Shown here in pieces: positions 3,012-24,956 of a DNA stretch of 40,808 nt. The notes below the pieces were generated by a model. The model worked only from the letters and a program-made list of their open reading frames with translations. It was not told the origin of the DNA and did no database searches. This DNA is from a virus. A program made the translations under genes and the position numbers. Positions within the stretch are counted from its first letter, which is position 1. Every line of letters begins with the position of its first letter. The stretch lies in the IMG/VR virus record IMGVR_UViG_3300025669_000085, positions 1 to 40,808 of that record. One strand, given 5' to 3'.

Positions 3012-5401
3012 TACCAAATCTCCTTTGTGTTTGTGTCTGCCAAGACCAGCCCGGCATCTGTTGCATAGCGCCGGATTGTCTCGACCATGAATGTTTTACG
3101 CCGTTGGATAAATGTCCGCCGGCATATCGAGTCCGCTGTGTGCTTCATGCCAACCAGAAAACAGGCTGTCTGCGCCCGGCTGACTCCAGTGTAGAAGTGC
3201 GCCCTATCACACACTCCGTATTCCCCACTCGCTCCAGGATATTCATCAAGGCAGTAGATTATGATTTTCCATTGTGAGCCTTGTGATTTATGGGTTGTCA
3301 CGGCGTATGCCAAGTCCAGGTCGCACCCCGTATCCGCTTTATTCCCACCGTTCTCGTCACCCTCTCCGTTTTTGTCTTCGTCCTGCTTTCTGTCAGCGCG
3401 AAAGATAATCACCGGCTTCTGGCTGCTTGGGAATTTCACTACAGTCTTCTTCTGCTCTGCATGGAGAACCCTGCCGATCTCGCCATTGGCTACCATGGCT
3501 TTTTCGTCGGCCGATTTCCAAGTGCCGTCTTTCGACTGGGTAGCAAATGGGAGGAAGCTGTTACGGAGTTGTATAACCTTGTCGCCAAGCCTGAAGGGAG
3601 TACGGGTATCGCCATCGCCATCGACCGGGTTCAGCAAATCTTGCAGCCGCCGGTTCAGCACCGTCCGGCTGAGCGGGCTCCTCTTGTTCACAGCGACCAG
3701 AACCTGCGCGTCCCAGACAGGATCATAGGGAGAGTCATCGCGTATTTGCTCCAGCAGACCGCACACCCTGGCTGGAGCCACCGAGCCACTACAAGTATGC
3801 AGCATCAGGTTCTTCGGGTCTTCGGCTTGCAGGTCGATTGTGTCGTCCGGTTCCCATGGTTGCTGATCCACAATGGCTGTACAGACGCGAACGATCGTGC
3901 CGGAATTTCTGTGTATTTCCTTTAATTCGCCGCAGGGCAGCCCGGCCTCGATCATGTCTCGTAGCGGAGCCCCGTATTCAACCGGAGGGAGTTGGTTGCA
4001 ATCTCCGACCAGGAGTAGCCCGCAGCCTTTCGGGATCGCTGCCAATAGCGAGCGGAAGAGGCCGGTCCCCAGCATTGATGCCTCCTCGACAACCACGAAT
4101 TGAGCGTCGAGCGGATTCGACTCGTTATGCTTAAACTCCCAGCCGCCTTCATCAACCGCCTCAACACCAAGGCCCGAGTGGATTGTGGTAGGAGTAAGAC
4201 CGGACAATTTCGCTTCGGCCATCAATTCCTTGACCCGCTGAGCCGCTTTGCCGGTCGGGGCCATAACCTTGACGCAACCCTGGCCGTGCATCATCTGGAT
4301 CGCACGAACGAGGCGGACAAGGGTGAAGGATTTTCCAGTCCCTGGTCGACCACCCAGCAAAACAACAGGACCGGCCAGAGCCTTCCTGAGTTCCGTGCGT
4401 TGATGATCCGTCAATTCCGCAAACTCCGGCCGGTCCAAAGAAGGCCATTCAACTGATTCATTTGCCATCATTTCTATCAGCCGCCGGCAGCAATACTCTT
4501 CCGCGTCTGCCCGCTGGATGTCTGCGACCCAGAGCCTATCCTGTTCGTCCGTCCGGGTCCGCATGATCTTGCCTCTCACCGCCAATGTCAATGCTTTCGT
4601 TGGCGTTACTTTCGTTCCGGCCACCGCCGCCCTCAGATACTCTACCCCCTTTTCCCATTGCATCCACACATGCCCCTGACTGTCAGACTCCTTGCGTGTT
4701 GCGTAGGACAGACAGTACGCCTGCCGCTTCAATCGTGACGGATCGTACCCTAATTCCAAGTAGAACCTATCTGCTTTTAAGAACCCGACACCACGCAGAG
4801 CTTGGGCCCGATGCGGGTAGCGAGTCAATATCTCGTGAGCTTTGGCCCCCCACAGTTGCAGCGCTTGCCTTACGCACACCTTGCCGAACCCGCGACCATC
4901 AAACAAGTCGTACAGTTGGATTGTGAGGTCTTCGGCGGCCTTCAATCGCTCTAGGACCTTGGACGCCTCGCGAGCCTTCTGGGCTGAAAATCGCTTGTTT
5001 CCGACAGTTTCAGCCGCCCGTTCGGGTTCTTCTCGCAAGACTTTGACCGCATCACCCTGAAACTCATCCCATAGAGCGTGGGCGGTCGCTGGCCCGACAT
5101 ACTTTGCTTGCTGGAGGTACTTGACGATACCAGTTTGGTTGTGTGGTTGGATTGAGCAGAACGAGTCAAACCGAAAATTATGCTGGGTCTCGCCGCCCCA
5201 CTGTTTTTGTTCCCAGCGGCCCCAGAATCGGAACGGTAATTGAGCTTGCAATTCGCCGGGATCCGCTTCGCCAAGCAGTGAAAATGCCCGCGGTAGATCG
5301 GCGTCGACCGGCTGCTGCTGCTTGGCCGACATGATCGTGAACGAGTCCCGGCGAAATTTCTCGTCGATCGGGACAGCAGTAATTTCAGTCAATTGGGCCA
5401 T
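3011..5401 (-). CDS. RecD-like ATP-dependent DNA helicase (SF1)
   Basis: The protein has 796 residues from the ATG at 5401. Walker A GGRPGTGKS lies at about residues 348-356, motif II VVVEEAS at about 434-440, and the C-terminal TTHKSQGSQ motif, typical of the UvrD_C_2 part of RecD2-type enzymes, at about 700-708. The roughly 340-residue region before the ATPase matches the size of the helix-hairpin-helix N-terminal region of RecD2 proteins. Such enzymes unwind DNA 5' to 3'. Here it likely serves phage replication or recombination. The gene ends on the start codon of the next gene. Confidence 0.9.
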   Translation of the reverse strand: MAQLTEITAVPIDEKFRRDSFTIMSAKQQQPVDADLPRAFSLLGEADPGELQAQLPFRFWGRWEQKQWGGETQHNFRFDSFCSIQPHNQTGIVKYLQQAKYVGPATAHALWDEFQGDAVKVLREEPERAAETVGNKRFSAQKAREASKVLERLKAAEDLTIQLYDLFDGRGFGKVCVRQALQLWGAKAHEILTRYPHRAQALRGVGFLKADRFYLELGYDPSRLKRQAYCLSYATRKESDSQGHVWMQWEKGVEYLRAAVAGTKVTPTKALTLAVRGKIMRTRTDEQDRLWVADIQRADAEEYCCRRLIEMMANESVEWPSLDRPEFAELTDHQRTELRKALAGPVVLLGGRPGTGKSFTLVRLVRAIQMMHGQGCVKVMAPTGKAAQRVKELMAEAKLSGLTPTTIHSGLGVEAVDEGGWEFKHNESNPLDAQFVVVEEASMLGTGLFRSLLAAIPKGCGLLLVGDCNQLPPVEYGAPLRDMIEAGLPCGELKEIHRNSGTIVRVCTAIVDQQPWEPDDTIDLQAEDPKNLMLHTCSGSVAPARVCGLLEQIRDDSPYDPVWDAQVLVAVNKRSPLSRTVLNRRLQDLLNPVDGDGDTRTPFRLGDKVIQLRNSFLPFATQSKDGTWKSADEKAMVANGEIGRVLHAEQKKTVVKFPSSQKPVIIFRADRKQDEDKNGEGDENGGNKADTGCDLDLAYAVTTHKSQGSQWKIIIYCLDEYPGASGEYGVCDRAHFYTGVSRAQTACFLVGMKHTADSICRRTFIQRRKTFMVETIRRYATDAGLVLADTNTKEIW

Positions 5402-5481
5402 GCCTGCAATCCTCGGGAAAAAACAGGGCGGCGGCTGCGGGAAAGGGACCACAGCCGCCGCAAGACGAACTGGAACGGAGT

Positions 5482-6051
5482 CTACCAGCTCATCCCCGGC
5501 CCCGGCGGAACCCCTGCCTCATTCTGCTGCTGGGGGGCAGTTTCCTGCTTGGTCTGCTGCCCAAGCATTCCGAGAAATTGCGCATCCTTCGGGATGTCTT
5601 TGGCCTTGTCGGCTGTGACGGCAAAGGTACGAAAGCCAATCCGCGGGTATGGACCCGGTTTCTCAGGGTCCACCTCGGTCTGACCCGTCGCCGGGTTCTT
5701 CCGCATGTTCGCTTCCATCTGGATGTCGGCGCAGCACTGCCGCCCCTTGAGAAGCGTTTCATCAACAGCCAGCCCTTGTTCGGCCGCCGTGGCTGCTTTT
5801 CGCTGTTCGGCGGTAACCAATCCAACCGCCTCGGCGAGATTATAGAACTTATCGACGGCTTTGCCTTCACATGGAAAGAACTCGCTGTGTATCTTGTCCT
5901 TCTGTGCTGGATCGGTAGCCGCCAACACCTGAAACGAGACTTTCACTGCTGTCCCGTACTGGGTTGATAGCTCCTGGCCTTCAATCAGTAGATGACACTT
6001 GCAGTTAGCGTCAATCATCCGATTAGCGGATCCGGGGTCGCATTGCACCAT
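5482..6051 (-). CDS. Possible ssDNA-binding/recombination partner protein
   Basis: This 189-residue protein has an ATG at 6051 preceded by CGGAGGAAA. The N-terminal 75 residues alternate hydrophobic and polar residues as in a small beta barrel, and the tail (about 165-189) is rich in Gln, Pro and Gly, a layout common in phage SSB-like proteins. It lies between the RecA/Sak4-like ATPase and the RecD-like helicase, where phages often place an ssDNA-binding partner. I see no diagnostic motif, so the function is inferred from context and composition. A DUF669-like protein is another option. Confidence 0.5.
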   Translation of the reverse strand: MVQCDPGSANRMIDANCKCHLLIEGQELSTQYGTAVKVSFQVLAATDPAQKDKIHSEFFPCEGKAVDKFYNLAEAVGLVTAEQRKAATAAEQGLAVDETLLKGRQCCADIQMEANMRKNPATGQTEVDPEKPGPYPRIGFRTFAVTADKAKDIPKDAQFLGMLGQQTKQETAPQQQNEAGVPPGPGMSW

Positions 6052-6139
6052 TTCAATTTCCTCCGTTAAGTAGGGCCTTGAGTTATTATTGGCTCGCCGC
6101 TAGGCCCCATGTGGGCGGGAGACCATTTTCATGTCTGTG

Positions 6140-7678
6140 TCAAAAGGGAATCTTGTCACCCCCGTTTGTCGGCTCCTTGGGGCTCAGTAGATGCCCCAGC
6201 ACGGCAATCCGGTCAATTGCCTGCAAATGAGTGAGGGATTCGGCCGTATTGTAGCCGAGCGCTTGCAGGAACAGTGCTTGCTCGTGCGGTGCCTTGTCGC
6301 CATACAACTCGACGGTAAGTTCACGGATACGGTTCCGCTGATCCTGTGCTGCCGGGTCATTATTCAGCGGCTGTTTTTCCGTCGGCTCAGTGGGTGCCGG
6401 TTCCGGCATGGTAGCCAGTTGCTTTTCAGCCTGCGTCCTCAAGAGTGCGGACAATGCACCGTCAGACTGCGGATCGGTCAGCATTGCCGGATGCTCGACG
6501 CCAAATCTCTCCTGGAGCCACGCCTTGGCCTCGGCCCCAGTGGCGAAAAGATTCTTCATTTGCAGTAGGCATTCATTGACCCGAGCCTCCGACGCCATTT
6601 TGGGCGTAGTGTCCTTCGGTTGAGTGGTTCGGGTGGCTTCCGGCTGAACTGCGGCATTTCCGCGTGCCGCTGCCTGCCGAGCCATTTCGAGCGCCGAGAC
6701 CTTTGACCCCTCTGCCTCGGCCTGGAACTGGGCAATCTGCTGCTGGGCGATAAGCCGATCGTCCTCGTTCATCTGGGCAGCCTCTGGCACCCGCTCTGCC
6801 GGCGTCAGTTTTTTGAAGTCCGGCGGGCTGGCAATGTAAGCTCGAATCGCATCCGGCGTGCATTCCGGAAGCCGCGGGGGAAGGATTGGCTGATCTTCGC
6901 TCGAATTGGCACCAAAACGTACCAGCCGCTCCTTCTTTAGGATGGCCGCGGGTACTCGCGGAGCCTCCTTCCCCTTGGCTTTCGGAGTGCGGTCAAGCTC
7001 GACATGCAGTGTCGCTAACTTCTCCAGCACATCCAGCCCCTCGGCAACCTTATTTTTCGTCCTTTGGCCACCAATCCACTCGTTTTTCAAATGGACCGTC
7101 AAAACAAACGTCTCGAACCGTAATCGACAATCGGTGCTCAGGATATGCGAGAGGATTGACTTGAGATCGGGCCAGAGCGTCATACTACTGGCCTTGGTGT
7201 ATTCGTTCACCGTGCGGCCAAACGCTTCCGGATGCCGTCGTAGCCAGTCGATCAGCCCCTCTTGGAGCGGGGTGAAGGTGTCGACCATACCAACGCGGTA
7301 CTTCCCAGCCGGCACGTCGATGAGCGACAGATACCACGCACGGAAAAGAGATGCCGACGGCGAATCATTGCAATCCGCTTGTTCCTTCAAGATGCGCAAC
7401 CAGCGGGGATCAGCACTACCTGGTGTCATCACCTTGTTGTGTACGCCCGCGGCAACCGCTGCCCGCGTATCTTTGTGGGTGAAATTCAGCGAGCCAGCAT
7501 AAGAGTCGGAAGACCCCTCCTGGTCGTACACAAGAGTAGTCGGCTCGATTTCAGTCGACGGCCGACGGCAATTGTCGTCGATCGTCAAGCCGAACAGTGT
7601 TTTTCCCGCGTTTACTGCTCCAGATACCATGATAATTGGTATCCGCACCCCGCCCCACAATTCGTTGGATTCAGACAT
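6140..7678 (-). CDS. RecA/Sak4-like P-loop ATPase
   Basis: The 512-residue protein starts at the ATG at 7678 after two GGAG-like sites. Walker A GAVNAGKT is at residues 20-27, and a Walker B strand ending VGMVDT at about 129-134. The P-loop so close to the N-terminus followed by a RecA-like core resembles phage Sak4/AAA_24 recombinases, which promote single-strand annealing. The long C-terminal part (about 300-512) is rich in Ala, Gln, Glu and Pro and looks like a flexible extension, making the protein longer than typical Sak4. Neighbouring SSB-like, exonuclease and helicase genes support a recombination role. Confidence 0.7.
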   Translation of the reverse strand: MSESNELWGGVRIPIIMVSGAVNAGKTLFGLTIDDNCRRPSTEIEPTTLVYDQEGSSDSYAGSLNFTHKDTRAAVAAGVHNKVMTPGSADPRWLRILKEQADCNDSPSASLFRAWYLSLIDVPAGKYRVGMVDTFTPLQEGLIDWLRRHPEAFGRTVNEYTKASSMTLWPDLKSILSHILSTDCRLRFETFVLTVHLKNEWIGGQRTKNKVAEGLDVLEKLATLHVELDRTPKAKGKEAPRVPAAILKKERLVRFGANSSEDQPILPPRLPECTPDAIRAYIASPPDFKKLTPAERVPEAAQMNEDDRLIAQQQIAQFQAEAEGSKVSALEMARQAAARGNAAVQPEATRTTQPKDTTPKMASEARVNECLLQMKNLFATGAEAKAWLQERFGVEHPAMLTDPQSDGALSALLRTQAEKQLATMPEPAPTEPTEKQPLNNDPAAQDQRNRIRELTVELYGDKAPHEQALFLQALGYNTAESLTHLQAIDRIAVLGHLLSPKEPTNGGDKIPF

Positions 7679-7713
7679 CTCCGTGTTCTCCGTATGAGTG
7701 TTACTTTACTTTT

Positions 7714-8460
7714 CTAGCCCAGTCCCATCGCCTGCGCAATCTGCATTGTGATCCGGACATCCTGCTCTAAGTACCTAATCGCTAGGGCCCGCTCCTCTGG
7801 CGTCCCGTGCCACATTCGGGAGAAGTCCGCTCCAGTGCAGCCCTCCAGCTTGCCCCCGAACCCAAATATCTTGGCTAGGGCGTTGAGCTTAATAAACTTG
7901 CCGTACTCTCCCATCGTCCATGTGGTCATCGTGTCCGCAAAACTGTCCTGGTTGAAGTACACCCGGCTGCCGCGGAACGACAACACCCAATCTGGAACGG
8001 TCACATCCAGCAGCCACGACCGACGGACCAGAAACGGCAAGTCGAAACCGAAGCCGTTGTGGAACACAATCGTCTGCTCCATAAACTCGTCGCATATTTC
8101 CCACCATGATTCCAGCGTTTCGTCTTCGTCCCCGCTGGCAAGCACTAGTGGTTCATAGTTCTCGATCAGGTAGCCAATTGCCAGCACTTGACCCGTTAGT
8201 GGATCCAGTGCTGCTTTCTCCTTGGTGGTCGCCAGATAACCGGCTTGATGCTGTTCGCAGTAACCATCCCAGTCGGCTAGAATGGCCTCGTGCTCAACCT
8301 TGGCTTCGGCGATCTTCTTGTCGATCGTCTCTTGTTTCACTGCCCGGCCGATATCTACCGTCGCCGGGTCGAATTGCCCCGGCATTACCGGCGGAACGTA
8401 TAGCCGCAGTAGGTCTCTGTCAGGTAGCGGACCTGTTTCAATGTCACTTGCTATCAGCAT
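7714..8460 (-). CDS. DEDDy-type 3'-5' exonuclease (DnaQ-like)
   Basis: The 248-residue protein carries all expected exonuclease motifs: Exo I with D6 and E8 (SDIETG), Exo II as FHNGFGFD with N135 and D140, and Exo III as YLEQD with Y230 and D234, placing it in the tyrosine (DEDDy) subclass. These enzymes remove nucleotides from 3' ends using two metal ions. No polymerase domain is attached. The start overlaps the end of csrA by 17 nt. Probably proofreading or recombination-associated trimming; the substrate is not evident from sequence. Confidence 0.85.
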   Translation of the reverse strand: MLIASDIETGPLPDRDLLRLYVPPVMPGQFDPATVDIGRAVKQETIDKKIAEAKVEHEAILADWDGYCEQHQAGYLATTKEKAALDPLTGQVLAIGYLIENYEPLVLASGDEDETLESWWEICDEFMEQTIVFHNGFGFDLPFLVRRSWLLDVTVPDWVLSFRGSRVYFNQDSFADTMTTWTMGEYGKFIKLNALAKIFGFGGKLEGCTGADFSRMWHGTPEERALAIRYLEQDVRITMQIAQAMGLG

Positions 8461-8617
8461 CGTTTTCCTCCTCTAGCAGTTCATCTCGTAAAATCACAAC
8501 ATCTGCCGGCGCCTCAATGCCCAGGCGAATATCTCCGTGCTTGATTCGCACAACCGTAACGGTGATGTGGGCGCCGATATGGATGGATTCGCCTTGTTTG
8601 CGAGTGAGCACAAGCAT
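8444..8617 (-). CDS. csrA: CsrA-family RNA-binding regulator
   Basis: The 57-residue protein starts at the ATG at 8617 with GGAG 7 nt upstream; a longer frame to 8674 has no support. It aligns end to end with CsrA/RsmA: MLVLTRKQGE at the N-terminus, the GIxAPxxVxxxRxE block at 33-46, and the key RNA-contact residues L4, R6 and R44 all present. CsrA dimers bind GGA motifs in mRNA leaders and control translation. A phage copy could redirect host carbon-storage control or tune the many GGA-rich SD sites in this genome; both are inference. It overlaps the exonuclease gene downstream. Confidence 0.95.
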   Translation of the reverse strand: MLVLTRKQGESIHIGAHITVTVVRIKHGDIRLGIEAPADVVILRDELLEEENDADSK

Positions 8618-10312: not shown

Positions 10313-10342
10313 GCTTCACTCCTCAGATTAGGGGGTCCAGAA

Positions 10343-10411
10343 CGTCATTAGCTTCGTCTTCGTCACGGTCACCGCCAATGCCATGGTCACAGCCATTGCC
10401 AACGCCAAAAG
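10343..10411. repeat. Hexanucleotide array 2 (minus-strand unit NNWGRC)
   Basis: About eleven degenerate 6-nt units, mostly NNTGGC or NNTGAC on the minus strand, begin directly after the stop codon of the gene at 10412-11038. The array ends in the same 19-nt block, GACGAAGACGAAGCT plus RATG, as array 1. No ORF with a supported start uses it. Confidence 0.75.
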
Positions 10412-11038
10412 CTAAGCAAACGCCGTCACCTTGCCGCGGCCGAAGCCCATCTTACGCGCCGCCCCGACGCCAATTACCTCAAACGCAGCAGTCAGGATCC
10501 GTTTCACTGTCTGCGCCTGCTTTTCGTCGGCAATGGCAATCGTTCCGGCCGCCTCGAAAAACTTGCCTTTGTCGAGGTACTGCCCGAGGTATTCGTTTTC
10601 TTGCCAGCTTCGCTGGTTGCTCTTTTCGAGCTTGACGAACCGAGCAAAAACGCCGCTCGCTTCCTTGCAGCCGGTAGCAAAATCGCCGATCTGAACGGCG
10701 GCCCGGAAATTGTCCTTGTCATAGGGCCCACGCAGGGCTTTCGGCGCGCCGCCGATAGCTTGCACTAAGGCACCGGCTACCTGATGCCGTGGAATGATGA
10801 TCTCACCATCCTTGTTCCGATACCACTGGTCGGCCGCCTTGATTTTCAGTTCGAGGTATTCTTCGTAGGTGATGCCTTGCTTGGAACACTCGGCCTTGAG
10901 GGCAGCAACTCGCTTCTCCTCGATTTGTAGCCGGTTCACGCCGGACTTCTTTTCGATTTCGATGCAGGTGTTTTTCGCCGGCCAGAAGGGGTGAGCAATG
11001 TACGAAATCATCGTCAATTTTACGCGGTAGGTTCTCAT
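10412..11038 (-). CDS. Uncharacterised protein with RAMP-like features
   Basis: The 208-residue protein is read from the ATG at 11038, which has AAAGGA upstream. The open frame continues upstream through the repeat array, but that extension is low-complexity and not supported. Near residue 80, IIIPRHQVAGAL resembles the IPGSxxKGAL block of RAMP/Cas7-type proteins, and GFGRG at 198-202, close to the C-terminus, resembles their glycine-rich loop. A charged helical segment fills about 27-75. No other CRISPR gene or array is present, so a Cas function is not claimed. It is flanked on both sides by related hexanucleotide arrays, which is odd. Confidence 0.6.
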   Translation of the reverse strand: MRTYRVKLTMISYIAHPFWPAKNTCIEIEKKSGVNRLQIEEKRVAALKAECSKQGITYEEYLELKIKAADQWYRNKDGEIIIPRHQVAGALVQAIGGAPKALRGPYDKDNFRAAVQIGDFATGCKEASGVFARFVKLEKSNQRSWQENEYLGQYLDKGKFFEAAGTIAIADEKQAQTVKRILTAAFEVIGVGAARKMGFGRGKVTAFA

Positions 11039-11083
11039 AATACAGTCCTTTCGAGGGGGGGTTGAAAATAAGTAACACACGTT

Positions 11084-11371
11084 CATCAGCTTCGTCTTCG
11101 CCAAAGCCACTGCCAAGGCCAGCGCCATGGCCAGCAGCTTCGTCTCCGCCATTGTCACTGCCACAGCCACGGCCAGTGCCAAGGCCATCAGCTTCGTCTT
11201 CGTCTTTGTCAGCGCCAGGGTCATGGCCAACGCCATAGCCAACGTCACTGCCATTGTCACCAACTTTGTCTCCGCCAGCGCCTTCGTCTCTGTCATCGCC
11301 ACAGCCAACGCCACAGCCAGCAGCTACGTCTCCGCCAACGCCATCGCCATCGCCACAGCCACTGCCAACAG
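11084..11371. repeat. Hexanucleotide array 1 (minus-strand unit NNWGRC)
   Basis: The 333-nt gap 11039-11371 is mostly a degenerate 6-nt array of about 48 units (minus strand NNTGGC, NNTGAC, NNAGAC) with internal GAAGCT units. It starts immediately after the stop of the small gene at 11372-11551. In one minus frame it reads as alternating X-Gly/X-Asp, in another as Ala/Leu/Thr/Lys-rich, in the plus frame as Ala/Ser/Val-rich; none has a supported start. The remaining 45 nt hold the SD of the downstream gene. Confidence 0.8.
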
Positions 11372-11551
11372 CTACGTCGGTTTCGGTTTCTCGATTGTAG
11401 CGTATCCCGGCCGGTCGCCCCATTTCTCGGCCCGCTCCAGCCCGCGCCGATCGTCCTCGGCCTCGGCTTTTGTGGTGTAGGGTCCGCAATCCGGGCAGTC
11501 GTGCCAGCCGGTTTCTATCCACCAGCCGTTGGGGCGGCGTGTTGTGTTCAT
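11372..11551 (-). CDS. Small CPDC-motif protein
   Basis: A 59-residue ORF with ATG at 11551 and an excellent AAAGGAG SD embedded in the end of the upstream gene, whose stop is 3 nt away. It contains CPDCG at about 19-23, a Trp-rich N-terminus (GWWIETGW) and a charged helix (about 28-45). The pattern suggests a small zinc-binding or nucleic-acid-associated protein; the family is not recognised. Confidence 0.7.
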   Translation of the reverse strand: MNTTRRPNGWWIETGWHDCPDCGPYTTKAEAEDDRRGLERAEKWGDRPGYATIEKPKPT

Positions 11552-11554
11552 GGG

Positions 11555-12157
11555 TCACTCTCCTTTCGCTTTGGCAATGGCGGCACGGGCTCGCTGGACG
11601 GCAACCCAGGCAATCTCTACAACGTCGGGGGTCGATGTCGTTTCAAATTGATTAGCAATGGCCTCGCACGCGGCCAGCAGGTCCGGGCAAGCGGCAAACA
11701 GTTGGGCCATCTTTGGAAACTCGGCATCTACCACCGCAAAAGCGCCCTTCTGCCCGTCTGACATTCGGGATTCAATATGCAACTCTTCCTCGTCAGTCTC
11801 CGGGTTGTATGCACCCCTAACGGTCGCGTACAACAAACTCGGCTCTTTATCATCGTTTCCTTTCGCTTTGGCAATGGCGGCAGCGGCCGTCTCAGCCATG
11901 TGATCAATACAGTTGACCGCGTGTTGCAATGGATCGCGGTTAAATGCACCTTCCTTTTTGGCGATTTCCTCGCACGCCGCCAGTAGGTCGTCATGGGCGT
12001 TGCAGGCCAGGGTGATGAAGGCGGTATTGGCTACGGCTTTGTCCCACATCTCAGTAGACCCAAACGGTGCCGGGATATGCGCAATCAGATTGCCAAGTTT
12101 ATCCCATATGTCGGTCGGCTTGCATTCGATGTGCCATGGTGTTGGTGTGTGTTCCAT
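11555..12157 (-). CDS. Phage hypothetical protein with internal duplication
   Basis: The 200-residue protein starts at the ATG at 12157 (TPTPWHIE N-terminus, a common start in phage hypotheticals of this type). Two segments repeat: NAHDDLLAACEEIAKK (about 52-67) ending in AAAAIAKAKGN (about 89-99), and CPDLLAACEAIANQ (about 156-169) ending in RARAAIAKAKGE (about 189-200). The protein therefore looks like an internal duplication or fusion of two paralogous units. The nucleotide repeat TTCGCTTTGGCAATGGCGGC at both unit ends supports this. Function unknown. Confidence 0.7.
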   Translation of the reverse strand: MEHTPTPWHIECKPTDIWDKLGNLIAHIPAPFGSTEMWDKAVANTAFITLACNAHDDLLAACEEIAKKEGAFNRDPLQHAVNCIDHMAETAAAAIAKAKGNDDKEPSLLYATVRGAYNPETDEEELHIESRMSDGQKGAFAVVDAEFPKMAQLFAACPDLLAACEAIANQFETTSTPDVVEIAWVAVQRARAAIAKAKGE

Positions 12158-12264
12158 CGTTTCTCTCTTTGGGTTTGGGGTTATCCGCGGCCATGCGCCG
12201 GCCGCCAGCGGCCCCGATACGCTGTTGCTCACCCGACTCGGGGCTACATCGGGCAGGAGTTGTG

Positions 12265-12699
12265 CTATTCTTCGTCTTCGTCGAACATCGCTTGCGGGTT
12301 GTTTGCGTCCAATCCTTCAGCTTCCAATTGTTTGTACACGTCGCGCTCGAGTGCCGCGAACATCAGCCGCGACCACTGGATCTCGCCGTCCTCGACCATT
12401 CCTTCGGCCCCAAATTCCTCGACGTAGGCTTCATCGTTATCGGTTGCCAGTAGGCCAAGTTGTGATTGCCAGGTGTAGATAACTCGGCCGCAGCCGTCGA
12501 TGGTTTCGTGCATGTACTCGGTCAGGGTTTCGCGGAGCTTTTCGCTGCGCTGGCCGTCATTATGTGCCTCGCGCATTCGCTCCATAACGTCTTCGGCAAT
12601 GTCCCGTACATCGTTGTGATAGTCCTGCCGGATGATGCTGGTGGCATTGTTTACGGCTTGCTCGCGGTCTTCTCTGGTCATGTCTCGCAATAGTGTCAT
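12265..12699 (-). CDS. Acidic phage hypothetical protein
   Basis: The 144-residue protein has an ATG at 12699 behind a CCCTAAACCCGAGGTAA leader of the repeated type seen in this region. It is mainly helical and strongly acidic, ending in FDEDEE. No family recognised. Downstream spacing to the next gene contains a hairpin-rich intergenic element (12181-12257). Confidence 0.7.
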   Translation of the reverse strand: MTLLRDMTREDREQAVNNATSIIRQDYHNDVRDIAEDVMERMREAHNDGQRSEKLRETLTEYMHETIDGCGRVIYTWQSQLGLLATDNDEAYVEEFGAEGMVEDGEIQWSRLMFAALERDVYKQLEAEGLDANNPQAMFDEDEE

Positions 12700-12734
12700 A
12701 GCGTTACCTCGGGTTTAGGGTTGGTTGAATATCG

Positions 12735-12782
12735 CCACTAGCGCGCCGCACACAATGCCGGCGCGCCGATGGGGCTACGCGC
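12735..12782. repeat. Hairpin cassette B, copy 1
   Basis: An intergenic repeat with stem GCGCGCCG (12741-12748) pairing with CGGCGCGC (12759-12766), followed by GATGGGGCTACGCGC. It matches copy 2 at 13595-13640. The stop codon of the gene at 12775-12999 lies inside the repeat (GGGGCTA). Confidence 0.8.
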
Positions 12783-12999
12783 ATCTTTCCGCCTGGACAC
12801 TGCGCGCAACATCAAGCGCGGTTGCCAGGCCGGGATGGCAGGTCCAGAGAGTCGACCAGTCCACGCCGTACACTATGCCGCCAGAGAACGCGCGGTAGAT
12901 TCTGTCGTAAATAGTCCGGTCGAGCCTATGTAACTGCTCTATCGTCAGTTGCTCACAGTATCGGCGGAGCCGCGCTTGTCGGAGTGTTGGTGTCTTCAT
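12775..12999 (-). CDS. Small basic hypothetical protein
   Basis: The 74-residue protein starts at the ATG at 12999 behind CCCGAGGTGAAACG. Residues 1-38 are Arg- and Leu-rich with helical spacing, which could bind nucleic acid. Its last codons and stop are part of hairpin cassette B. Family not recognised. Confidence 0.65.
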   Translation of the reverse strand: MKTPTLRQARLRRYCEQLTIEQLHRLDRTIYDRIYRAFSGGIVYGVDWSTLWTCHPGLATALDVARSVQAERCA

Positions 13000-13020
13000 C
13001 GTTTCACCTCGGGATTAGGG
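13000..13020 (-). promoter_or_regulatory. Repeated SD leader (one of about seven copies)
   Basis: The leader CCCTAATCCCGAGGTGAAAC directly precedes the ATG at 12999. Close variants precede the starts at 12699, 13301, 13869, 14149, 14182 and 14393. All contain CTAAnCC followed by GAGG(TGA), an extended SD. Confidence 0.7.
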
Positions 13021-13032
13021 GTTCAGGGTTAT

Positions 13033-13076
13033 CAAGTGCCCCGCCGGGTCGCGAAGCCCGGTTACGCTATCGGGGC
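13033..13076. repeat. Hairpin cassette A, copy 1 (44 bp)
   Basis: This 44-bp block is identical to 13335-13378. On the minus strand GCCCCG pairs with CGGGGC and, inside, CCGGG pairs with CCCGG, leaving a one-sided ATAGCGTAA bulge. It precedes the SD leader of the gene at 12775-12999. Confidence 0.85.
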
Positions 13077-13082
13077 TGGGAG

Positions 13083-13301
13083 CTAGGCCCATGATTTTGC
13101 CTTGCTGTGCGGCAAATGCCCAGATTCCAGGAGATAGCCGACATCTTTGATTATTTGCTTGCGAGTACCAAATCGGCTGGGTCCACCCAGTTTGTATTCC
13201 GCAAGATACCAGCAGTCACGCCGAATTCGCTTGATCTGCCAAGTCTTGCCATGGGCAGGAAATAGCGTTGCTTCACGCATTTTGTTGGGAATTGTAATCA
13301 T
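13083..13301 (-). CDS. Small basic hypothetical protein
   Basis: The 72-residue protein starts at the ATG at 13301 behind a CCCTAACCCGAGG leader. It is rich in Lys, Arg and aromatics, with strands suggested at about 10-40. No family recognised. It is followed and preceded by identical 44-bp hairpin cassettes. Confidence 0.65.
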   Translation of the reverse strand: MITIPNKMREATLFPAHGKTWQIKRIRRDCWYLAEYKLGGPSRFGTRKQIIKDVGYLLESGHLPHSKAKSWA

Positions 13302-13334
13302 AAGTTCTGTCCTCGGGTTAGGGTTCGTTGTCAA

Positions 13335-13378
13335 CAAGTGCCCCGCCGGGTCGCGAAGCCCGGTTACGCTATCGGGGC
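13335..13378. repeat. Hairpin cassette A, copy 2 (44 bp)
   Basis: Identical to 13033-13076, with the same two-stem fold. It lies between the stop at 13388 and the SD leader of the gene starting at 13301. Confidence 0.85.
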
Positions 13379-13387
13379 CGGGGCGGG

Positions 13388-13555
13388 TTAGCAGGTGAAC
13401 GATCCTGCTGGGCCATCGAAGAAATTGTAGTAGACGCCCGAGGAAGAATAGAGTCGGAGGGTTTCTCGTTCCTCTTGTCCGGGCCGTTGGTATCGAACAA
13501 CCTGAGCAGCGACTTTACCATTTTTGTGGTAGGTGGTTTTGACTGTTTCTTTCAT
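13388..13555 (-). CDS. Small hypothetical protein (55 residues)
   Basis: An ORF from ATG 13555 to TAA 13388 with AAAGG upstream. The protein has alternating strand-like residues, several Tyr, and ends GSFTC. It fills the gap between two repeat cassettes exactly, which supports it being a gene. Its leader is a diverged form of the local SD leader. Function unknown. Confidence 0.6.
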   Translation of the reverse strand: MKETVKTTYHKNGKVAAQVVRYQRPGQEERETLRLYSSSGVYYNFFDGPAGSFTC

Positions 13556-13594
13556 TGTTCTAGCCTTTCGACTCCGTTAGGGTTTCGGATAACA

Positions 13595-13640
13595 CCACTA
13601 GCGCGCCGTAGTGGTACGGCGCGCCGATGGGGCTACGCGC
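13595..13640. repeat. Hairpin cassette B, copy 2
   Basis: A perfect 10-bp stem (GCGCGCCGTA, 13601-13610, with its complement at 13615-13624) closes a GTGG loop. Flanks match copy 1 at 12735-12782, and here too the stop of the upstream gene (13633-13869) lies within the repeat. Confidence 0.85.
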
Positions 13641-13869
13641 GCCCATATACTATCGACTCTAGCGCTACGCTGGGGTGGCCGACACTGCTGAACGTGATAT
13701 TCCCCCGCGGGCCGAAACGGAAGTGATAAGCCCCGGTGTCGTCGGCCGCAAGAAGCAAGCCGTCAAAATAGCCGATACTGATTCGCGCTGTGTTGTGGCC
13801 AGCCGCGGCCGATTTGTCTCGCCAGTGTTTCAGGATCTGCATTTTGTTTTGCGCCCATGATGGAAGCAT
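13633..13869 (-). CDS. Hypothetical protein
   Basis: The 78-residue protein starts at the ATG at 13869 behind CTCTAACCCGAGGTGAAAC. It has a basic N-terminal helix and a strand-rich middle (about 30-70, GYFDGLLLAADD then YHFRFGPRG). No family recognised; its last codons form part of cassette B. Confidence 0.65.
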   Translation of the reverse strand: MLPSWAQNKMQILKHWRDKSAAAGHNTARISIGYFDGLLLAADDTGAYHFRFGPRGNITFSSVGHPSVALESIVYGRA

Positions 13870-13936
13870 GTTTCACCTCGGGTTAGAGTGTAGGGGAGTG
13901 TAGGGGTCGGCCGGCGTGATGCGGGCCTCTGTATTA

Positions 13937-14182
13937 TTAGGAAAGCTCCATCCATTGGACTGATTCTCCAGGAACGAGCCATACTCGCACGCTATTCCTG
14001 AAAGCGTAGGCGGTAGGCTGTCCAGTGAAAGCAGCACCCTCAGCAACAAACACCGTTTCCCGGGACGTCTTCCCATCTGCCCACAATATCGTGTGCCTTG
14101 TGTGTATCGTTCGGCTCGTTTGCGCTGCTCGTGGTGTTTTGGTTTCCATGCGTTCACCTCGGATTAGTTTGTACGGGGTCAT
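13937..14182 (-). CDS. Hypothetical protein with two candidate starts
   Basis: The protein has 81 residues from ATG 14182 or 70 from ATG 14149. Both starts are in frame and both have a copy of the local SD leader (CCCAGGTGAAACT and CCGAGGTGAACGC), so two isoforms or a recent leader duplication are possible. The body is strand-rich (about 30-75). Function not recognised. Confidence 0.65.
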   Translation of the reverse strand: MTPYKLIRGERMETKTPRAAQTSRTIHTRHTILWADGKTSRETVFVAEGAAFTGQPTAYAFRNSVRVWLVPGESVQWMELS

Positions 14183-14186
14183 AGTT

Positions 14187-14393
14187 TCACCTGGGGGCTA
14201 GGGTAGCTGTCAGCATACAATGGTCAGTGGTTACCGCATTACCGTAGGGCGGTTGATACTCAATCCGGTGTTCGATGATAGCGGAGCCGTCGCGATACTG
14301 TCGACGATGGCCCTTCCGCCCGCAAACAGGGCATACCACTATGCCGTGAAGTTTACTCAGGCGGCGGACCGTGTAGTCTATTGGGGATCGCAC
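14187..14393 (-). CDS. Small CxxC protein, first gene of the leftward group
   Basis: The 68-residue protein uses a GTG start at 14393 behind CCCGAGGTGACCT. CPVCG at about 21-25 with nearby His and Arg suggests a zinc-binding site. It is the first gene behind the promoter at 14464-14491. The end of the gene encodes the SD of the next one. Confidence 0.65.
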   Translation of the reverse strand: MRSPIDYTVRRLSKLHGIVVCPVCGRKGHRRQYRDGSAIIEHRIEYQPPYGNAVTTDHCMLTATLAPR

Positions 14394-14463
14394 AGGTCAC
14401 CTCGGGGTCAGAGTGTAGGGTGCTGGGTATGGGTAGCGTTGTTTTGTATCTGCCCGCTGCTAT

Positions 14464-14491
14464 ATCATACTCTAATTCTCGGTACAGTCAA
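14464..14491 (-). promoter_or_regulatory. Sigma-70-like promoter, leftward
   Basis: On the minus strand TTGACT (14486-14491), a 16-nt spacer and TATGAT (14464-14469). Transcription would start near 14457 and read the gene at 14393 and the small-gene group. Confidence 0.7.
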
Positions 14492-14528
14492 TAGACTATA
14501 GACACAGATAATAGACAGACAGCAGGCG

Positions 14529-14551: not shown

Positions 14552-14755
14552 AGAATCTCGACCACTATATGTTGTATTACGACAGCAAGACCGGAATAAA
14601 ATAAAATCGGAGTGGACACCTGAGTGAATGTTGCGCACGTCGTAAGTCGCTACAGGTACAAGGGTTAGGGATGGTCTTTGGCGGGGGTGGCACTAGGCGG
14701 GGGGTTGACAAGGGGCGAGTCGCCTCGGTGTGGCTCCCCGTGCATCGCTCCCCCC

Positions 14756-14786
14756 CAGTATTACGTTATTGTAATTCGTAACACGC
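14756..14786. repeat. 31-bp dyad repeat, copy 1 (copy 2 at 14806-14836)
   Basis: CAGTRTTACGTTATTGTAAT plus TCGTAACACGC occurs twice, start to start exactly 50 bp apart. Each copy has inverted arms (GTGTTACG / CGTAACAC, perfect in copy 2, one change in copy 1) around an 11-nt AT-rich core. This is the pattern of paired repressor or integrase-accessory sites. The rest of the gene-free stretch 14394-15207 holds two promoters and two palindromes listed separately. Confidence 0.8.
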
Positions 14787-14805
14787 GCGGAGTGCAGCAC
14801 TAGGC

Positions 14806-14836
14806 CAGTGTTACGTTATTGTAATTCGTAACACGC
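14806..14836. repeat. 31-bp dyad repeat, copy 2
   Basis: Matches 14756-14786 except for one base and has perfect 8-bp arms. Confidence 0.8.
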
Positions 14837-16021: not shown

Positions 16022-16197
16022 TTGTTTTTCTCCACCCTGTTTCCCTGGATACGCATAATGGCAAACTGTTCGTCACTGCCCTCCACTCGCCGCTCGTAGC
16101 CCCAGACGATTGGCAGTCCTGGATTGCGTTGGTAATCGGCAAGCGATAGCAGACGCGCCAAGTAGACTACCGGCGGGCCGAGGGTTGGGTCAGTCAA
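16018..16197 (-). CDS. Small protein of the LGPPVVYLAR type
   Basis: The 59-residue protein starts at TTG 16197, overlapping the stop of the PAPS-reductase-like gene (TTGA), with AAGGGG upstream. It contains TLGPPVVYLAR near the N-terminus, repeated in the mini-ORF at 16960-17037 and, truncated, at 17204-17263. Function unknown. This looks like the intact member of a family whose fragments mark an insertion upstream. Confidence 0.5.
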   Translation of the reverse strand: MTDPTLGPPVVYLARLLSLADYQRNPGLPIVWGYERRVEGSDEQFAIMRIQGNRVEKNK

Positions 16198-16955
16198 AAC
16201 AGTACCCCTTGCTTGTCCTCTTCCGCGAACCGTCGCTCCAGGTCGTGGACCGTATCGTATTGGTGAAAGCCCCTGTTGTGTCCCGGCCGTATGGCGTCCA
16301 TTTCGAGCATCCGCTGCCAGTAGTGCGGATAGTGCGTGCGCAACGTGCGGCAATCTCGTAACGACTGGAGCGGACAACAAAAGCAACTCACCCGCTTGAA
16401 ATGCTTGTACAAACCACTCCAGGTGTACCCGAGGTCGTGGCACATTTTCAGGGCGTCACGCTCGGTAATGCCTGCTTCTATCAACGGATAGCGTACCTTC
16501 CCTTTGTCTTGTAGTTTTCGCTGTGATTTGGTGTTGCACCGATGGGCTTCGTCGGCCGCGAACCCGATGCACTTTATGCCGTCCGGGCATATCCGCTTAG
16601 CAACTGCGTCTAATCCTCGCGCCTTAATGTCCGTACACCATCGCCCCATGACATTTGGCCAGCCGTAGCCGTGGTAACGCACTTCGCCTTGTTTCACGCC
16701 CTCCTTGGGATAGTCTTTGCTTGCTCGAATCGGCATTGACACAAACTGGAAGTCAAGCGGTATCGTCGGCTGCACGGGGATGATAGTCAGTCCCGTCTTT
16801 TGTTCGACTAAATCCCGGTGTGCCGTTATCTCGTCGAACTCCCAGCCGGTGTGAAATTCAATCACTCCCGCAATATCGGCACTTTGATCCAGCAACAGAT
16901 GTAGCATGGCCGTTGAATCTTTTCCACCGGAAAACGACACTACCAATTCACTCAA
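16194..16955 (-). CDS. PAPS-reductase-like PP-loop protein
   Basis: The 253-residue protein starts at TTG 16955 with AAAGGAG upstream; the nearby ATG is out of frame and stops at once. The PP-loop SGGKDS is at residues 9-14, RWCTD at about 105-109 and a CFCC cluster at 191-194. PP-loop enzymes adenylate substrates, and PAPS-reductase-like members in phages are of uncertain substrate; some relatives handle sulfur in DNA or tRNA modification. It lies downstream of a DNA methyltransferase and a radical SAM protein, so nucleic-acid modification is possible but unproven. Confidence 0.85.
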   Translation of the reverse strand: MSELVVSFSGGKDSTAMLHLLLDQSADIAGVIEFHTGWEFDEITAHRDLVEQKTGLTIIPVQPTIPLDFQFVSMPIRASKDYPKEGVKQGEVRYHGYGWPNVMGRWCTDIKARGLDAVAKRICPDGIKCIGFAADEAHRCNTKSQRKLQDKGKVRYPLIEAGITERDALKMCHDLGYTWSGLYKHFKRVSCFCCPLQSLRDCRTLRTHYPHYWQRMLEMDAIRPGHNRGFHQYDTVHDLERRFAEEDKQGVLF

Positions 16956-17207: not shown

Positions 17208-17263
17208 GCTCCCGCTCCAGTTCCTTGTTCCGTGCCCGGCGGGCCGAGGGTTGGGTCAGTCAA
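17204..17263 (-). pseudogene. Truncated LGPP-family remnant after the methyltransferase
   Basis: TTG 17263 overlaps the methyltransferase stop and has AAGGAG upstream. It reads LTDPTLGPPG and then diverges, stopping after 19 residues. The first 27 nt are the same as the start of the intact gene at 16197, so this is best seen as a broken duplicate. Confidence 0.45.
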
Positions 17264-18561
17264 AATAGCACTCCTTGGCGTAATCGGTTGGCGGCTATCT
17301 CGCAGTATTTCTCTTCCCGCTCGATGCCAATTACCCGCTCGAACCAGCGGGACGCGGCAAGTAGCGTAGAGCCACTACCGGCAAACGGGTCAAGCAACGT
17401 ACCGGCGTGCCTTGGTTGCGAGATGAGCTTGCATAGGTAGCTCATCAAGTCCAGCGGCTTGACCGTCGGGTGGGTGTTGCCCTTGCCGCGTTCGGCCTTG
17501 TCTGCTTTAGCACAGTAAAAAAACCGAGCGGCGCTGCCGGAGTCGTTGCCGTAGTTGCCAGAAACAACACCCCCGCCACCCGTGAAGCTGTTCCCTGTTC
17601 CGTTGCCGCGCTTATGCCCAGCATTTAACGCACCGCTCTTCGTGCACGGAAACCCCGCCACCACTTCCTCGCTACCGTCGTGAATCAGATTGGTGGGCCA
17701 GCGGCCAGAAGGCGAACCACCACGAGGGCCCGGCGTAGCCGAGAAGTCGGTCGCCCCGTTGTCTGTGTATCGTTTGTCCGCCGAAGCCTCTCCGTCGCGT
17801 CCCTTCTGGTAAGCGTTGGGCCGATAGCTTTGTTTCTGGTTTGCGGCATTTAGCCGTTCCATTCCGCCCGAATGTGGCTGCGGAGTAAAGTTGCCCACCC
17901 GGCACCCATCTACGTTGATCCCCGCCACGCCATGCTCAAGCGCGTTGGCAGCGAACGTGCCGTCAAGCGGTTTCATGGCTAGGACAATAATTTCTACTGC
18001 AGGTTTCAAAGCAGTACCCCAGCCGTCCCATAGGCGGGCGGCTTCGGTGGCGGGGACGGTGACAGGTACGCGCTTCGTTTCCTCGGGATGGGATGCAAAG
18101 GCCCCGGCCTTCCACGTTTCGCCGGTGCCGTTGCGCTGGATGCTTGCGCGTTTCGTTTCGCCGGTCGGGACGGGCTCTGCCCCAGCCGCCTTGTCGATGG
18201 CCTTGCTGATGTTATGCGACTTCGGAAATCCACTACCGTAAACCCACATCAAACAATCACGAATTTCCCAGCCGGCATCCTCGATAGCACACATCAAGCG
18301 GTGGTGGGTCCGCGTGCCGCCAAACGCAAGCAGGTGTGCGCCGGGCAAGCAGGCACCCAAGAGCGGTTCCCATATCGCCGGGATACTCGCGTCCCAAGGC
18401 TTGCCCATGAACCCCAGCCCATACGGCGGGTCGGTTACCACGGCAGAGACACCCGACAGCAGCGGCAGCACGTCGCGACAATCCCCGCAGTACAACGTAA
18501 TCCCATCCTTGCACTCGCAAGGTTGACAACCACAGCGATAACACTTAGGTAGTTCGTTCAT
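17260..18561 (-). CDS. DNA methyltransferase (N6-adenine or N4-cytosine, beta order)
   Basis: The 433-residue protein is read from ATG 18561, which overlaps the stop of the small upstream gene (ATGA). DPPY at residues 44-47 precedes the SAM-binding DPFAGSG at about 391-397, the beta-class order. HPTVKPL, typical of this group, precedes the second motif. The N-terminus has a Cys cluster (C7, C10, C12, C15, C17) that may bind zinc. A 300-residue insert between motifs probably holds the target-recognition domain. No restriction enzyme gene is adjacent, so it is likely an orphan phage methylase protecting DNA. Confidence 0.9.
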   Translation of the reverse strand: MNELPKCYRCGCQPCECKDGITLYCGDCRDVLPLLSGVSAVVTDPPYGLGFMGKPWDASIPAIWEPLLGACLPGAHLLAFGGTRTHHRLMCAIEDAGWEIRDCLMWVYGSGFPKSHNISKAIDKAAGAEPVPTGETKRASIQRNGTGETWKAGAFASHPEETKRVPVTVPATEAARLWDGWGTALKPAVEIIVLAMKPLDGTFAANALEHGVAGINVDGCRVGNFTPQPHSGGMERLNAANQKQSYRPNAYQKGRDGEASADKRYTDNGATDFSATPGPRGGSPSGRWPTNLIHDGSEEVVAGFPCTKSGALNAGHKRGNGTGNSFTGGGGVVSGNYGNDSGSAARFFYCAKADKAERGKGNTHPTVKPLDLMSYLCKLISQPRHAGTLLDPFAGSGSTLLAASRWFERVIGIEREEKYCEIAANRLRQGVLF

Positions 18562-19554: not shown

Positions 19555-19748
19555 CAGTCAGCTTCCAAGGCTGTCCGCGCCTGCTCTATGTGCCAATGCC
19601 AATCGAGTCCGATAGGCGGGTCGTCGGTGAGGTTCTCAAGGGCGGTTCGTAGCCGCGCATTGTCCGCTTGCATGTCCTCCACCGCCTGAATAATTTCCTT
19701 GGCAACACAACGTCGCCGTAGCTGGGAAATCAACTCCTTGTTAGTCAT
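19554..19748 (-). CDS. Small helical hypothetical protein
   Basis: Sixty-four residues from ATG 19748, the second of two ATGs and the better spaced from GGAGGT. Mainly helical with Gln/Arg/Asp (about 1-45). Its start overlaps the upstream stop. Family not recognised. Confidence 0.6.
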   Translation of the reverse strand: MTNKELISQLRRRCVAKEIIQAVEDMQADNARLRTALENLTDDPPIGLDWHWHIEQARTALEAD

Positions 19749-19984
19749 CATTCACCTCCTGCCGCGTCGGCGGCTTTATTGGCTGTCGCCAGCCATATTA
19801 CCGAACCGCCATCGTCGAAAACATCCTTGTTGAATATCTCGCCGAGTAAGGCTGCGATTGACCGCAAGCAGGCGGTATCTATCGTGTCTCCGGCATTTGC
19901 CTGCAAGCATAGTTCGTCTCCGTCCAACACCAATCCGTCAGCACGTTTTATTTTGGCCTTTAAGCCCTCTTGTTCATCGCTCAC
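19748..19984 (-). CDS. Small hypothetical protein ending AADAAGGE
   Basis: Seventy-eight residues from GTG 19984 (GTGA overlap). The C-terminus AADAAGGE is encoded by GCGGCAGGAGGTGA, which is also the SD of the next gene. Similar ends occur in the two following upstream genes, pointing to duplicated junctions. Function unknown. Confidence 0.6.
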   Translation of the reverse strand: MSDEQEGLKAKIKRADGLVLDGDELCLQANAGDTIDTACLRSIAALLGEIFNKDVFDDGGSVIWLATANKAADAAGGE

Positions 19985-20352
19985 AACTCACCTCCCGCCG
20001 CGTCTGCGGCAGTTTGTCCACGATGGCTTGCAGCCACTTTAGCATGAAACCATGAGCGAAACTTCACGTCGCAGTGCTCCCAATCGGCTGTTGCCTCGTC
20101 ACCACCCGCCTCTGCCTCAAAGAAGGATATGATGTGGTGCAACCGCTCGATTTCGTCGGCCTGTTTGATAACCATATTGAAAGCCCGACAAAACTCCTCA
20201 TTGTTGCACCAATGGGTGTACGGCCACTTATGCGATGCAATCATTTTCTTCTGTCGGACGGCAAAGACTTCGCGGGCCTCACGGGTCGTCTCTAGCGGCT
20301 CTCGGCACGATGCCGCGCGCCCTTCGAGCAATACTTTTTCTGTTATCTTCAT
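19981..20352 (-). CDS. Hypothetical protein ending AADAAGGEL
   Basis: The 123-residue protein has ATG 20352 overlapping the previous stop, with GGGAGG upstream. Mid-region has Trp, Cys and His (about 43-58), and a His-rich helical portion follows. Its C-terminal AADAAGGEL matches that of the neighbour at 19748. No family recognised. Confidence 0.65.
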   Translation of the reverse strand: MKITEKVLLEGRAASCREPLETTREAREVFAVRQKKMIASHKWPYTHWCNNEEFCRAFNMVIKQADEIERLHHIISFFEAEAGGDEATADWEHCDVKFRSWFHAKVAASHRGQTAADAAGGEL

Positions 20353-20732
20353 CGCTTCCCTCCCGTCGCGTTTGCGGCCACATGAAATATGTGACTCACG
20401 CTAGTCACATAGTCTCCTGTATGGATCGCTTTCCTTGAGCAATCTACTATGTCCGCCATTGCAGCTTGCAATTCGTGAGCCTGATATAGTTCGCACTGAT
20501 AATAACTTTCCGGTGCCTCCCAGGCGGAATAGACGCTGGCCGGCACGTCTTCCCGGTTGCACTTTCCGACGGCGAAATGAAGCGCTTGCATGGTTTTGTT
20601 TTCTGCTTGCAACCGCTCGATCTCACGACGAAGGCAATGCGGACAATCAGCCGCATGGGCCGTGTACGTTTGCACCCTGTTCGCACCCTTTTCTATGTAG
20701 GACACCGTATGATTACATTCGCTGTCACGCAT
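20349..20732 (-). CDS. Hypothetical protein with CPHC motif
   Basis: The 127-residue protein starts at ATG 20732, overlapping the upstream stop (TGATG), after GGAGGTGA. CPHCLRREIERLQAENK (about 30-46) joins a CxxC to a coiled-coil-like helix. Ends in ATGGKR, a variant of the AAGGE junction. Possible zinc-binding regulator; function not shown. Confidence 0.65.
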   Translation of the reverse strand: MRDSECNHTVSYIEKGANRVQTYTAHAADCPHCLRREIERLQAENKTMQALHFAVGKCNREDVPASVYSAWEAPESYYQCELYQAHELQAAMADIVDCSRKAIHTGDYVTSVSHIFHVAANATGGKR

Positions 20733-21001
20733 CACTCACCTCCCGCCGCTTGTGCGGCTTGGTCGTCAAACAACCCGTCCGACAAATGGCAAAGCGCGGA
20801 AATCGCCGGACGCGACGCCTCATAAATGCCAAGGCAAGCATCGCAATAGTCTCCACGGCACGGCCGGTGAATTTTCTCGGGTTGCCTTTCCGCTTGGAAT
20901 CCCTGGACTTTTACACCGAGCAACGACTGGCTCATCTCGGTCGCCTCGGCCCCACATAATGCCCCGGTGTTTTGCAGTCCTATCCGTAGATGTATTTTCA
21001 C
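20732..21001 (-). CDS. Hypothetical protein with CRGDYCDAC motif
   Basis: Eighty-nine residues from GTG 21001, which overlaps the stop of the small upstream gene (GTGA). The longer open frame upstream is antisense-like to that gene and is rejected. CRGDYCDAC at about 50-58 may bind metal. Ends QAAQAAGGE, the same SD-encoding junction as its neighbours. Confidence 0.55.
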   Translation of the reverse strand: MKIHLRIGLQNTGALCGAEATEMSQSLLGVKVQGFQAERQPEKIHRPCRGDYCDACLGIYEASRPAISALCHLSDGLFDDQAAQAAGGE

Positions 21002-21114
21002 GGCAGTGTATCCATTGCTTTTTCGAGTGGTGTTGGCACATACTCCGGTTCGATTTCCAGTGCGGTCTCTGTTTTGCCAAACAATAAGTCCATTGTTTTC
21101 GCGAGTAGACTCAT
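20998..21114 (-). CDS. Small hypothetical protein (38 residues)
   Basis: An ORF from ATG 21114 with a perfect AGGAGG upstream and overlapping stops on both sides. Predicted as one amphipathic helix followed by EPEYVPTPLEKAM. Too short to place in a family. Confidence 0.6.
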   Translation of the reverse strand: MSLLAKTMDLLFGKTETALEIEPEYVPTPLEKAMDTLP

Positions 21115-21398
21115 GGCAGTTCCTCCTGTGGCTCACTTAGCTTTTCGTAATTACGATCAACTTCTTCCAGGGTATCGGCCATCGCCGCGAAGGACTCGGC
21201 CATTGTGCGCGCGGCCACGGCATTGATGCCCATGCGGTAGGTAGACACGCATTCTGTTGGGTGGACGCCATTTAAGGAATCAAATGAATACGCCTTTTCC
21301 TCCAGCAGCAGGACTACCTCCGCCACCCCATACGATTTAATGTCGCCGCCCGGGTGCATGGACATCATGTTTGTAAGCATCGCCTTGACGTTTTTCAT
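21111..21398 (-). CDS. Hypothetical protein
   Basis: Ninety-five residues from ATG 21398 with AAGGAAC upstream. The stop overlaps the next start. Upstream of the start lies a 25-bp sequence (21407-21431) that is identical to 22075-22099 within the duplicated gene. Function unknown. Confidence 0.6.
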   Translation of the reverse strand: MKNVKAMLTNMMSMHPGGDIKSYGVAEVVLLLEEKAYSFDSLNGVHPTECVSTYRMGINAVAARTMAESFAAMADTLEEVDRNYEKLSEPQEELP

Positions 21399-24955: not shown

Positions 24956-24956
24956 A

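Follow-up and report, generated by a model that had tools for sequence, protein, structure and literature searches.

Hairpin repeats and a start-associated leader at gene junctions in the early operon of a metagenomic phage

Why should two short hairpin-forming repeats recur between small phage genes that are otherwise unlike one another? The question arises in an IMG/VR virus record of 40,808 nt (the whole stretch analysed, here called the window) that belongs to a phage known from metagenomes only. In a first-pass annotation of this DNA, two families of duplicated hairpin cassettes, A and B, were described between small genes, and it was proposed that such genes are exchanged or duplicated as units, like a cassette array.

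Positions 15834-40808 and 1-8113 of the window recur with 100% identity in another contig, IMGVR_UViG_3300023435_000659, which bridges these two parts via 35 kb of additional DNA. From this identity and the joining of the parts, we conclude that both contigs are pieces of one circularly permuted genome of ~75.8 kb. The cassettes sit within the 7.7 kb that is covered by the window alone, with no second strain there. The phage encodes a terminase, a RecD/Dda-like helicase, a 3'-5' exonuclease of the polymerase type, a methyltransferase, and a tyrosine recombinase. Its terminase shows only distant similarity to those of sequenced phages, and the phage is most closely related to metagenomic contigs whose capsid protein (MCP) is 82-93% identical to its own.

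Cassettes, leader and a second array in the window

The annotated coordinates of cassettes A and B are correct, and all copies fall between genes of an early operon that runs leftward, for which the minus strand is the mRNA strand (all features of this operon are given on that strand). Read along the mRNA, the order is 14187-14393, 13937-14149, 13633-13869, the second copy of B (B2), 13388-13555, the second copy of A (A2), 13083-13301, the first copy of A (A1), 12775-12999, the first copy of B (B1), 12265-12699, a GC-rich gap, and 11555-12157. The genes bordering the cassettes code for 78 (13633-13869), 55 (13388-13555), 72 (13083-13301), and 74 (12775-12999) amino acids, none of them of a known family, and for 144 amino acids (12265-12699) with no family above the cut-off. 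The protein of gene 11555-12157 has an internally repeated stretch (repeats 11561/11858 and 11652/11958) and a phrog_1273-type domain.

Cassette A is indeed an identical 44-bp repeat (44/44), located at 13033-13076 between genes 13083-13301 and 12775-12999, and at 13335-13378 between genes 13388-13555 and 13083-13301. The identity ends at both edges, and by chance ~1e-18 exact 44-mer pairs would be expected in 41 kb. Its hairpin has the form GCCCCG-(9 nt)-CCGGG-loop-CCCGG-CGGGGC, plus ACTTG, and the upstream stop codon stands 6-12 nt before the hairpin foot and not inside it. Cassette B occupies 12735-12782 (B1, 48 nt, before gene 12265-12699) and 13595-13640 (B2, 46 nt, before gene 13388-13555). 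The two copies have exact blocks of 14 nt and 24 nt in common around unlike tips (10 versus 8 nt), each of which lengthens its own stem with different letters (CAT/GTG in B1, TA/TA in B2). The core GGCGCGCC is palindromic. As had been annotated, cassette B includes the stop codon of the upstream gene: the TAG codons of 12775-12999 (B1) and 13633-13869 (B2) both lie inside the conserved block GCGCGTAGCCCC.

The predicted fold of B2 was more stable than those of shuffled sequences (p 0.002). Compared with composition-matched shuffles, the folds of B1 (-26 kcal/mol, p 0.11) and cassette A (-20.5 kcal/mol, p ~0.06), although energetically strong, were not clearly beyond what their GC-rich composition gives. 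No Rfam 15 match above threshold was obtained for the cassettes, and a comparison of A, B, and the GC-rich gap at 12158-12264 for a common origin gave no significant similarity (all p > 0.19).

Among the genes flanking the cassettes, the pairs that a duplication would have left similar displayed no similarity at either the DNA or the protein level. The cassettes thus did not arise by gene duplication, and the recurring unit is the junction and not the gene. This bears out the annotated role of the hairpins as junction elements between small genes, which recur beside different, mutually unrelated neighbours; the arrangement that had been named as the mark of simple duplication, cassettes always next to the same genes, is not what we see.

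A second element is found in the same gaps. The leader CCCTAA(n)CCCGAGG precedes the next start in three of the four cassette gaps, at 12707-12720 (CCCTAAACCCGAGG, gene 12265-12699), 13007-13020 (CCCTAATCCCGAGG, gene 12775-12999), and 13311-13323 (CCCTAACCCGAGG, gene 13083-13301). A diverged form, CCCTAACGGAG, can be read in the fourth at 13571-13581, before gene 13388-13555. With up to 3 mismatches allowed, the leader was found 6-9 nt ahead of the start of 10 of the 89 predicted genes, compared with ~0.65 expected per 89 (145 of 20,000 random 45-mers fell within 3 mismatches). Nine of these starts, one of them an alternative start, belong to the block at 10.0-14.4 kb, and the tenth is that of 22423-22548. 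Gaps lacking an A or B hairpin also carry leaders, as at 13876-13888 (CTCTAACCCGAGG, gene 13633-13869) and 14157-14169 (AACTAATCCGAGG, gene 13937-14149). As in start-associated sequences, the repeat is longer than a ribosome site and lies near the starts of several unrelated non-structural genes. The repeats with their placement, the common leader, and the unrelated neighbouring genes are established, and the pattern is real and beyond chance.

The same principle is repeated within coding sequence at 19741-20758 on the minus strand, where four copies of a hairpin GCCGC-nnnn-GCGGC plus GGGAGGTGA coincide with gene overlaps. The four genes of this second array are adjacent and otherwise unrelated by blastp, with C-termini AA(D/N/Q)A(A/T)GG that are encoded by the small hairpin together with the next gene's ribosome site. 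Neither this junction family (at 19.7-20.8 kb) nor the leader in the gaps nor the minus orientation of the mRNA had been remarked in the first-pass annotation.

Junctions in other phages

It had been suggested that the cassettes be sought next to other genes in other phages, and among annotated phages they were not found: blastn of the cassette region returned nothing meaningful, and no Ounavirinae record. In viral contigs, a 32-mer of cassette A had no match, and an 18-mer had one, inside a long ORF of a contig without similarity to the proteins of this phage, and for both these reasons we regard it as a chance match. The leader, as a 16-mer pattern, gave nine isolated scattered matches in viral contigs and no arrays. 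In the capsid relatives (L019-L025), the region or the cassettes are absent; the early block of the longest of them, G007, has GAGGTGA ribosome sites but no repeated hairpins of such a kind. Positions 20001-40000 of G007 also contain a 3244-aa open frame beside a cluster of small genes. A collection of bacterial genomes queried with the portal or capsid protein yielded no relative.

The likeness to a cassette array does not extend to integrons, since there are no paired attC-type core sites (no RYYYAAC in 11500-14500, GTTRRRY at chance level) and no integron integrase, the recombinase at 25229-25807 scoring 81 bits against a cut-off of 265.

Closer parallels are found among start-associated and other intergenic repeats. 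In cluster K phages, SAS are short conserved sequences near the starts of non-structural genes that partly match the ribosome site, like the window leader, and a subset has ESAS inverted repeats directly upstream, as here, with different sequences (PMC3203893). The 13-nt SAS GGGATAGGAGCCC of these phages stands a few nt before starts; the window leader, CCCTAA(n)CCCGAGG, is a different sequence. Halovirus HF2 also has two classes of repeat between its genes, class I among early-to-middle genes, and both classes are experimentally proven promoters; unlike the window elements, they are AT-rich, belong to a virus of an archaeal host, serve late genes in the case of class II, and keep their position among related viruses (PMC8707807). 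The window junctions belong among such known systems and are not a novel kind of system.

The SAS literature (PMC3203893) also led us to Citrobacter phage Mordin, for which the genome announcement describes a 26-bp SAS-like repeat, CCAACAATCCTAAACTGGAGAATCTA (PMC4611695), and from there to Felix O1, for which 57-bp and 39-bp copies are listed as direct repeats (PMC3185647). The accessible text of these two papers reports neither hairpins nor recombination at junctions, and no other accessible source on hairpins or early intergenic elements in Ounavirinae came to light. In Felix O1, Mordin, Moogle, and SUSP1, a stop codon is followed by one of two hairpin families, a CCTAAAC-GGAG leader, and an ATG. 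The early arm of Mordin has 16 leader-preceded small genes, most of them with one of the two hairpin families between stop and leader, and a single Mordin hairpin-plus-leader query matched 1381 places in 287 phage records. The long family, H1, starts at or within 2 nt of the upstream stop codon in nearly all Mordin and Felix O1 copies.

We compared 45 distinct H1 copies from 11 phages. Of 846 pair cells, 96.5% were paired, versus at most 56% with the arms slid. Two pairs show GC-to-UA changes on both sides (13 sequences in total) and a third shows a U-G/C-G exchange, which favours pairing as RNA. The covariation score was exceeded by none of 500 shuffles, a control that takes no account of relatedness among the copies. 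As read from the sequence, H1 overlaps TTTACA-N17-TAAGAT-like boxes, and the second family, H2, directly follows TTGACA/TTGCAA-N17-TAAAGT-like boxes; with such sigma70-like boxes at both families, transcripts may also begin at these junctions.

Across nine Ounavirinae phages, gene order (counted for leader-preceded genes only) differs by entire junction-plus-gene units. In three cases, the shorter array has kept the junction that elsewhere stands ahead of the missing gene, now joined to the next gene. The Moogle F05 junction is 98% identical to the Mordin/SUSP1 junction before F09, a gene absent from the Moogle array, versus 70-71% to their F05 junction. The same pattern was found for the F14 junctions of Sf14 (96% versus 77%) and SUSP1 (90% versus 79%). 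Such fusions of a missing gene's junction to the next gene point to a crossover within the common leader or hairpin. The SUSP1 F12 hairpin belongs to the H2 family. In the regions inspected (L049 8711-15822 and L050-L059), the early hairpins coincide with sigma70-like promoters as well as with the breakpoints of gene gain and loss.

The window resembles these phages in its small early genes of unknown function, its two hairpin families, the stop codon at the hairpin foot (the A copies keeping their short distance from it), and a conserved leader in which CCTAA stands 4-5 nt ahead of the ribosome site. The hairpin sequences are not homologous, and the Ounavirinae junctions are present in far more copies and carry sigma70-like promoters, whereas the scan used found none in the A/B gaps; the analogy is therefore imperfect. 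The mean match between the window and Mordin leaders exceeded that of shuffled leaders (p 0.034), a weak resemblance that is suggestive only.

Possible roles of the junctions

On the mRNA, each cassette gap comprises the stop codon of gene n, which falls within the hairpin foot or shortly ahead of it, then the A or B hairpin, a short A/C-rich linker, the leader, and the ATG of gene n+1. We lean, with some reserve, toward reading the cassettes as intercistronic mRNA hairpins that form, with the start-associated leader, modular expression junctions and that serve secondarily as recombination points. The hairpin would act in the mRNA, most likely separating cistrons, and we infer a biochemical role in processing, stability, or insulation; as a processing or exonuclease-blocking element, it would leave the ribosome site of the next small gene clean. 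The leader would set translation initiation of the downstream gene. The intercistronic RNase III sites of T7 early mRNA are likewise related hairpins between early genes, with longer stems than those of the window.

As the same junction stands before and after unrelated genes, it would also offer short homology at which gene units could be inserted, lost, or duplicated. Support for this role comes from the Ounavirinae, where the gain and loss of whole junction-plus-gene units has its breakpoints in the shared junction, and by analogy such exchange is plausible in the window phage. Short homology at gene boundaries has been proposed to generate phage mosaicism, and boundary sequences of that kind resemble the joints of the window, known here from one sequence version; most mosaic boundaries in phages have no visible homology (PMC3029335).

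It is conceivable, if rather doubtful, that unrelated phages have converged on one early-operon design, in which a stop-anchored hairpin and a CCTAA-type leader form a gene-independent joint for exchange by homologous recombination with the expression signals kept. If true, this would amount to a cassette array without a dedicated recombinase. The case bears on how phages shuffle their small early genes: because the joints here can be seen as repeats that probably function in expression, both junction-mediated exchange and the role of the hairpin are directly testable. The visible joints are stronger in Felix O1-like phages, which grow on laboratory E. coli, and the covariation and breakpoint evidence from Ounavirinae is the by-product of most value.

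Among the alternatives, the one with the best standing, itself unlikely, is that each junction has its own promoter, the repeated block being a promoter or operator and the hairpin a by-product or a protector of the 5' end of the new transcript. The proven promoters of HF2 (PMC8707807) and the sigma70-like boxes of both Ounavirinae hairpin families speak for it; the A/B gaps, by contrast, are GC-rich and had no sigma70-like match in the scan used, though other promoter types may serve the host. The sole good sigma70-like match upstream of the operon, by consensus, is TTGACT-16-TATGAT at 14464-14491 on the minus strand. Between the divergent operons, a 32-nt direct repeat (31/32; 14755-14786 and 14805-14836) with palindrome-like GTTACGTTATTGTAATTCGTAAC likely represents operators.

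Attenuators or terminators that turn down distal genes are an improbable reading. GC-rich intergenic hairpins would suit them, and some starts are preceded by C-rich, G-poor linkers on which Rho could load, but C-richness is greatest in gaps without A or B, and neither cassette is followed by a T-run on the mRNA strand, leaving the GC stem of an intrinsic terminator without its second part. A strong intergenic hairpin elsewhere (5402-5481, minus strand; z -4.5), GCGGCGGCTG..CAGCCGCCGC then CCTGTTTTTT, is intrinsic-terminator-like. The phage also encodes a CsrA homologue (8444-8617, minus strand; Pfam E 2e-22), which we rejected as a ligand of the leader, whose sequences have no consistent GGA motif.

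We give little credence to inverted repeats that act as DNA and to which a protein of the phage or host binds, in the way suggested for ESAS. The palindromic core of cassette B would fit such a site, and in cluster K phages the ESAS inverted repeats show no covariation as RNA, leaving, in their authors' view, little support for pairing (PMC3203893). Against it, the tips of cassette B are unlike yet complementary, the copies always have one orientation and the same place between stop and leader, and U-G pairs are retained in Ounavirinae H1.

A simple recent segmental duplication of gene plus spacer is very unlikely: the complete identity of the A copies suggests that A was copied recently, but the unrelated neighbours and the end of identity at the hairpin edges already contradict it. 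Mobile REP-like repeats spread by a transposase can practically be set aside, for although GTAG ahead of the B hairpin resembles the foot of REP repeats, each family has just two copies, all in one place and one orientation, and no such transposase was found among the proteins scanned.

Other features of the window

A tRNA-like sequence at 32799-32926 (plus strand) has an acceptor GGCCC/GGGCC, a D arm GTGC/GCAC, a T arm GCGGGTTCGATTCCCGC, and an insert of ~80 nt at the position of the anticodon loop. ARAGORN made no call there, in Rfam just the T arm matched, weakly, and the stretch is skipped in the Blast alignment of the relative L019. Low-complexity coding repeats with a 6-nt period are found at 10341-11380 (A-x-A-x type on the minus strand) and at 37405-37644 (hydrophobic on the plus strand or EGxGE acidic on the minus strand).

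The terminase large subunit (26238-29069, plus strand) is interrupted by an intein-like (Hint) domain at residues ~604-881. A PAPS-reductase-like protein and a DNA methyltransferase (16194-16955 and 17260-18495, minus strand) both end in QGVLF, a beta-clamp-like motif, and after each of the two gene ends comes a copy of the beginning of one and the same small ORF (repeats 16170/17236 and 16138/16975).
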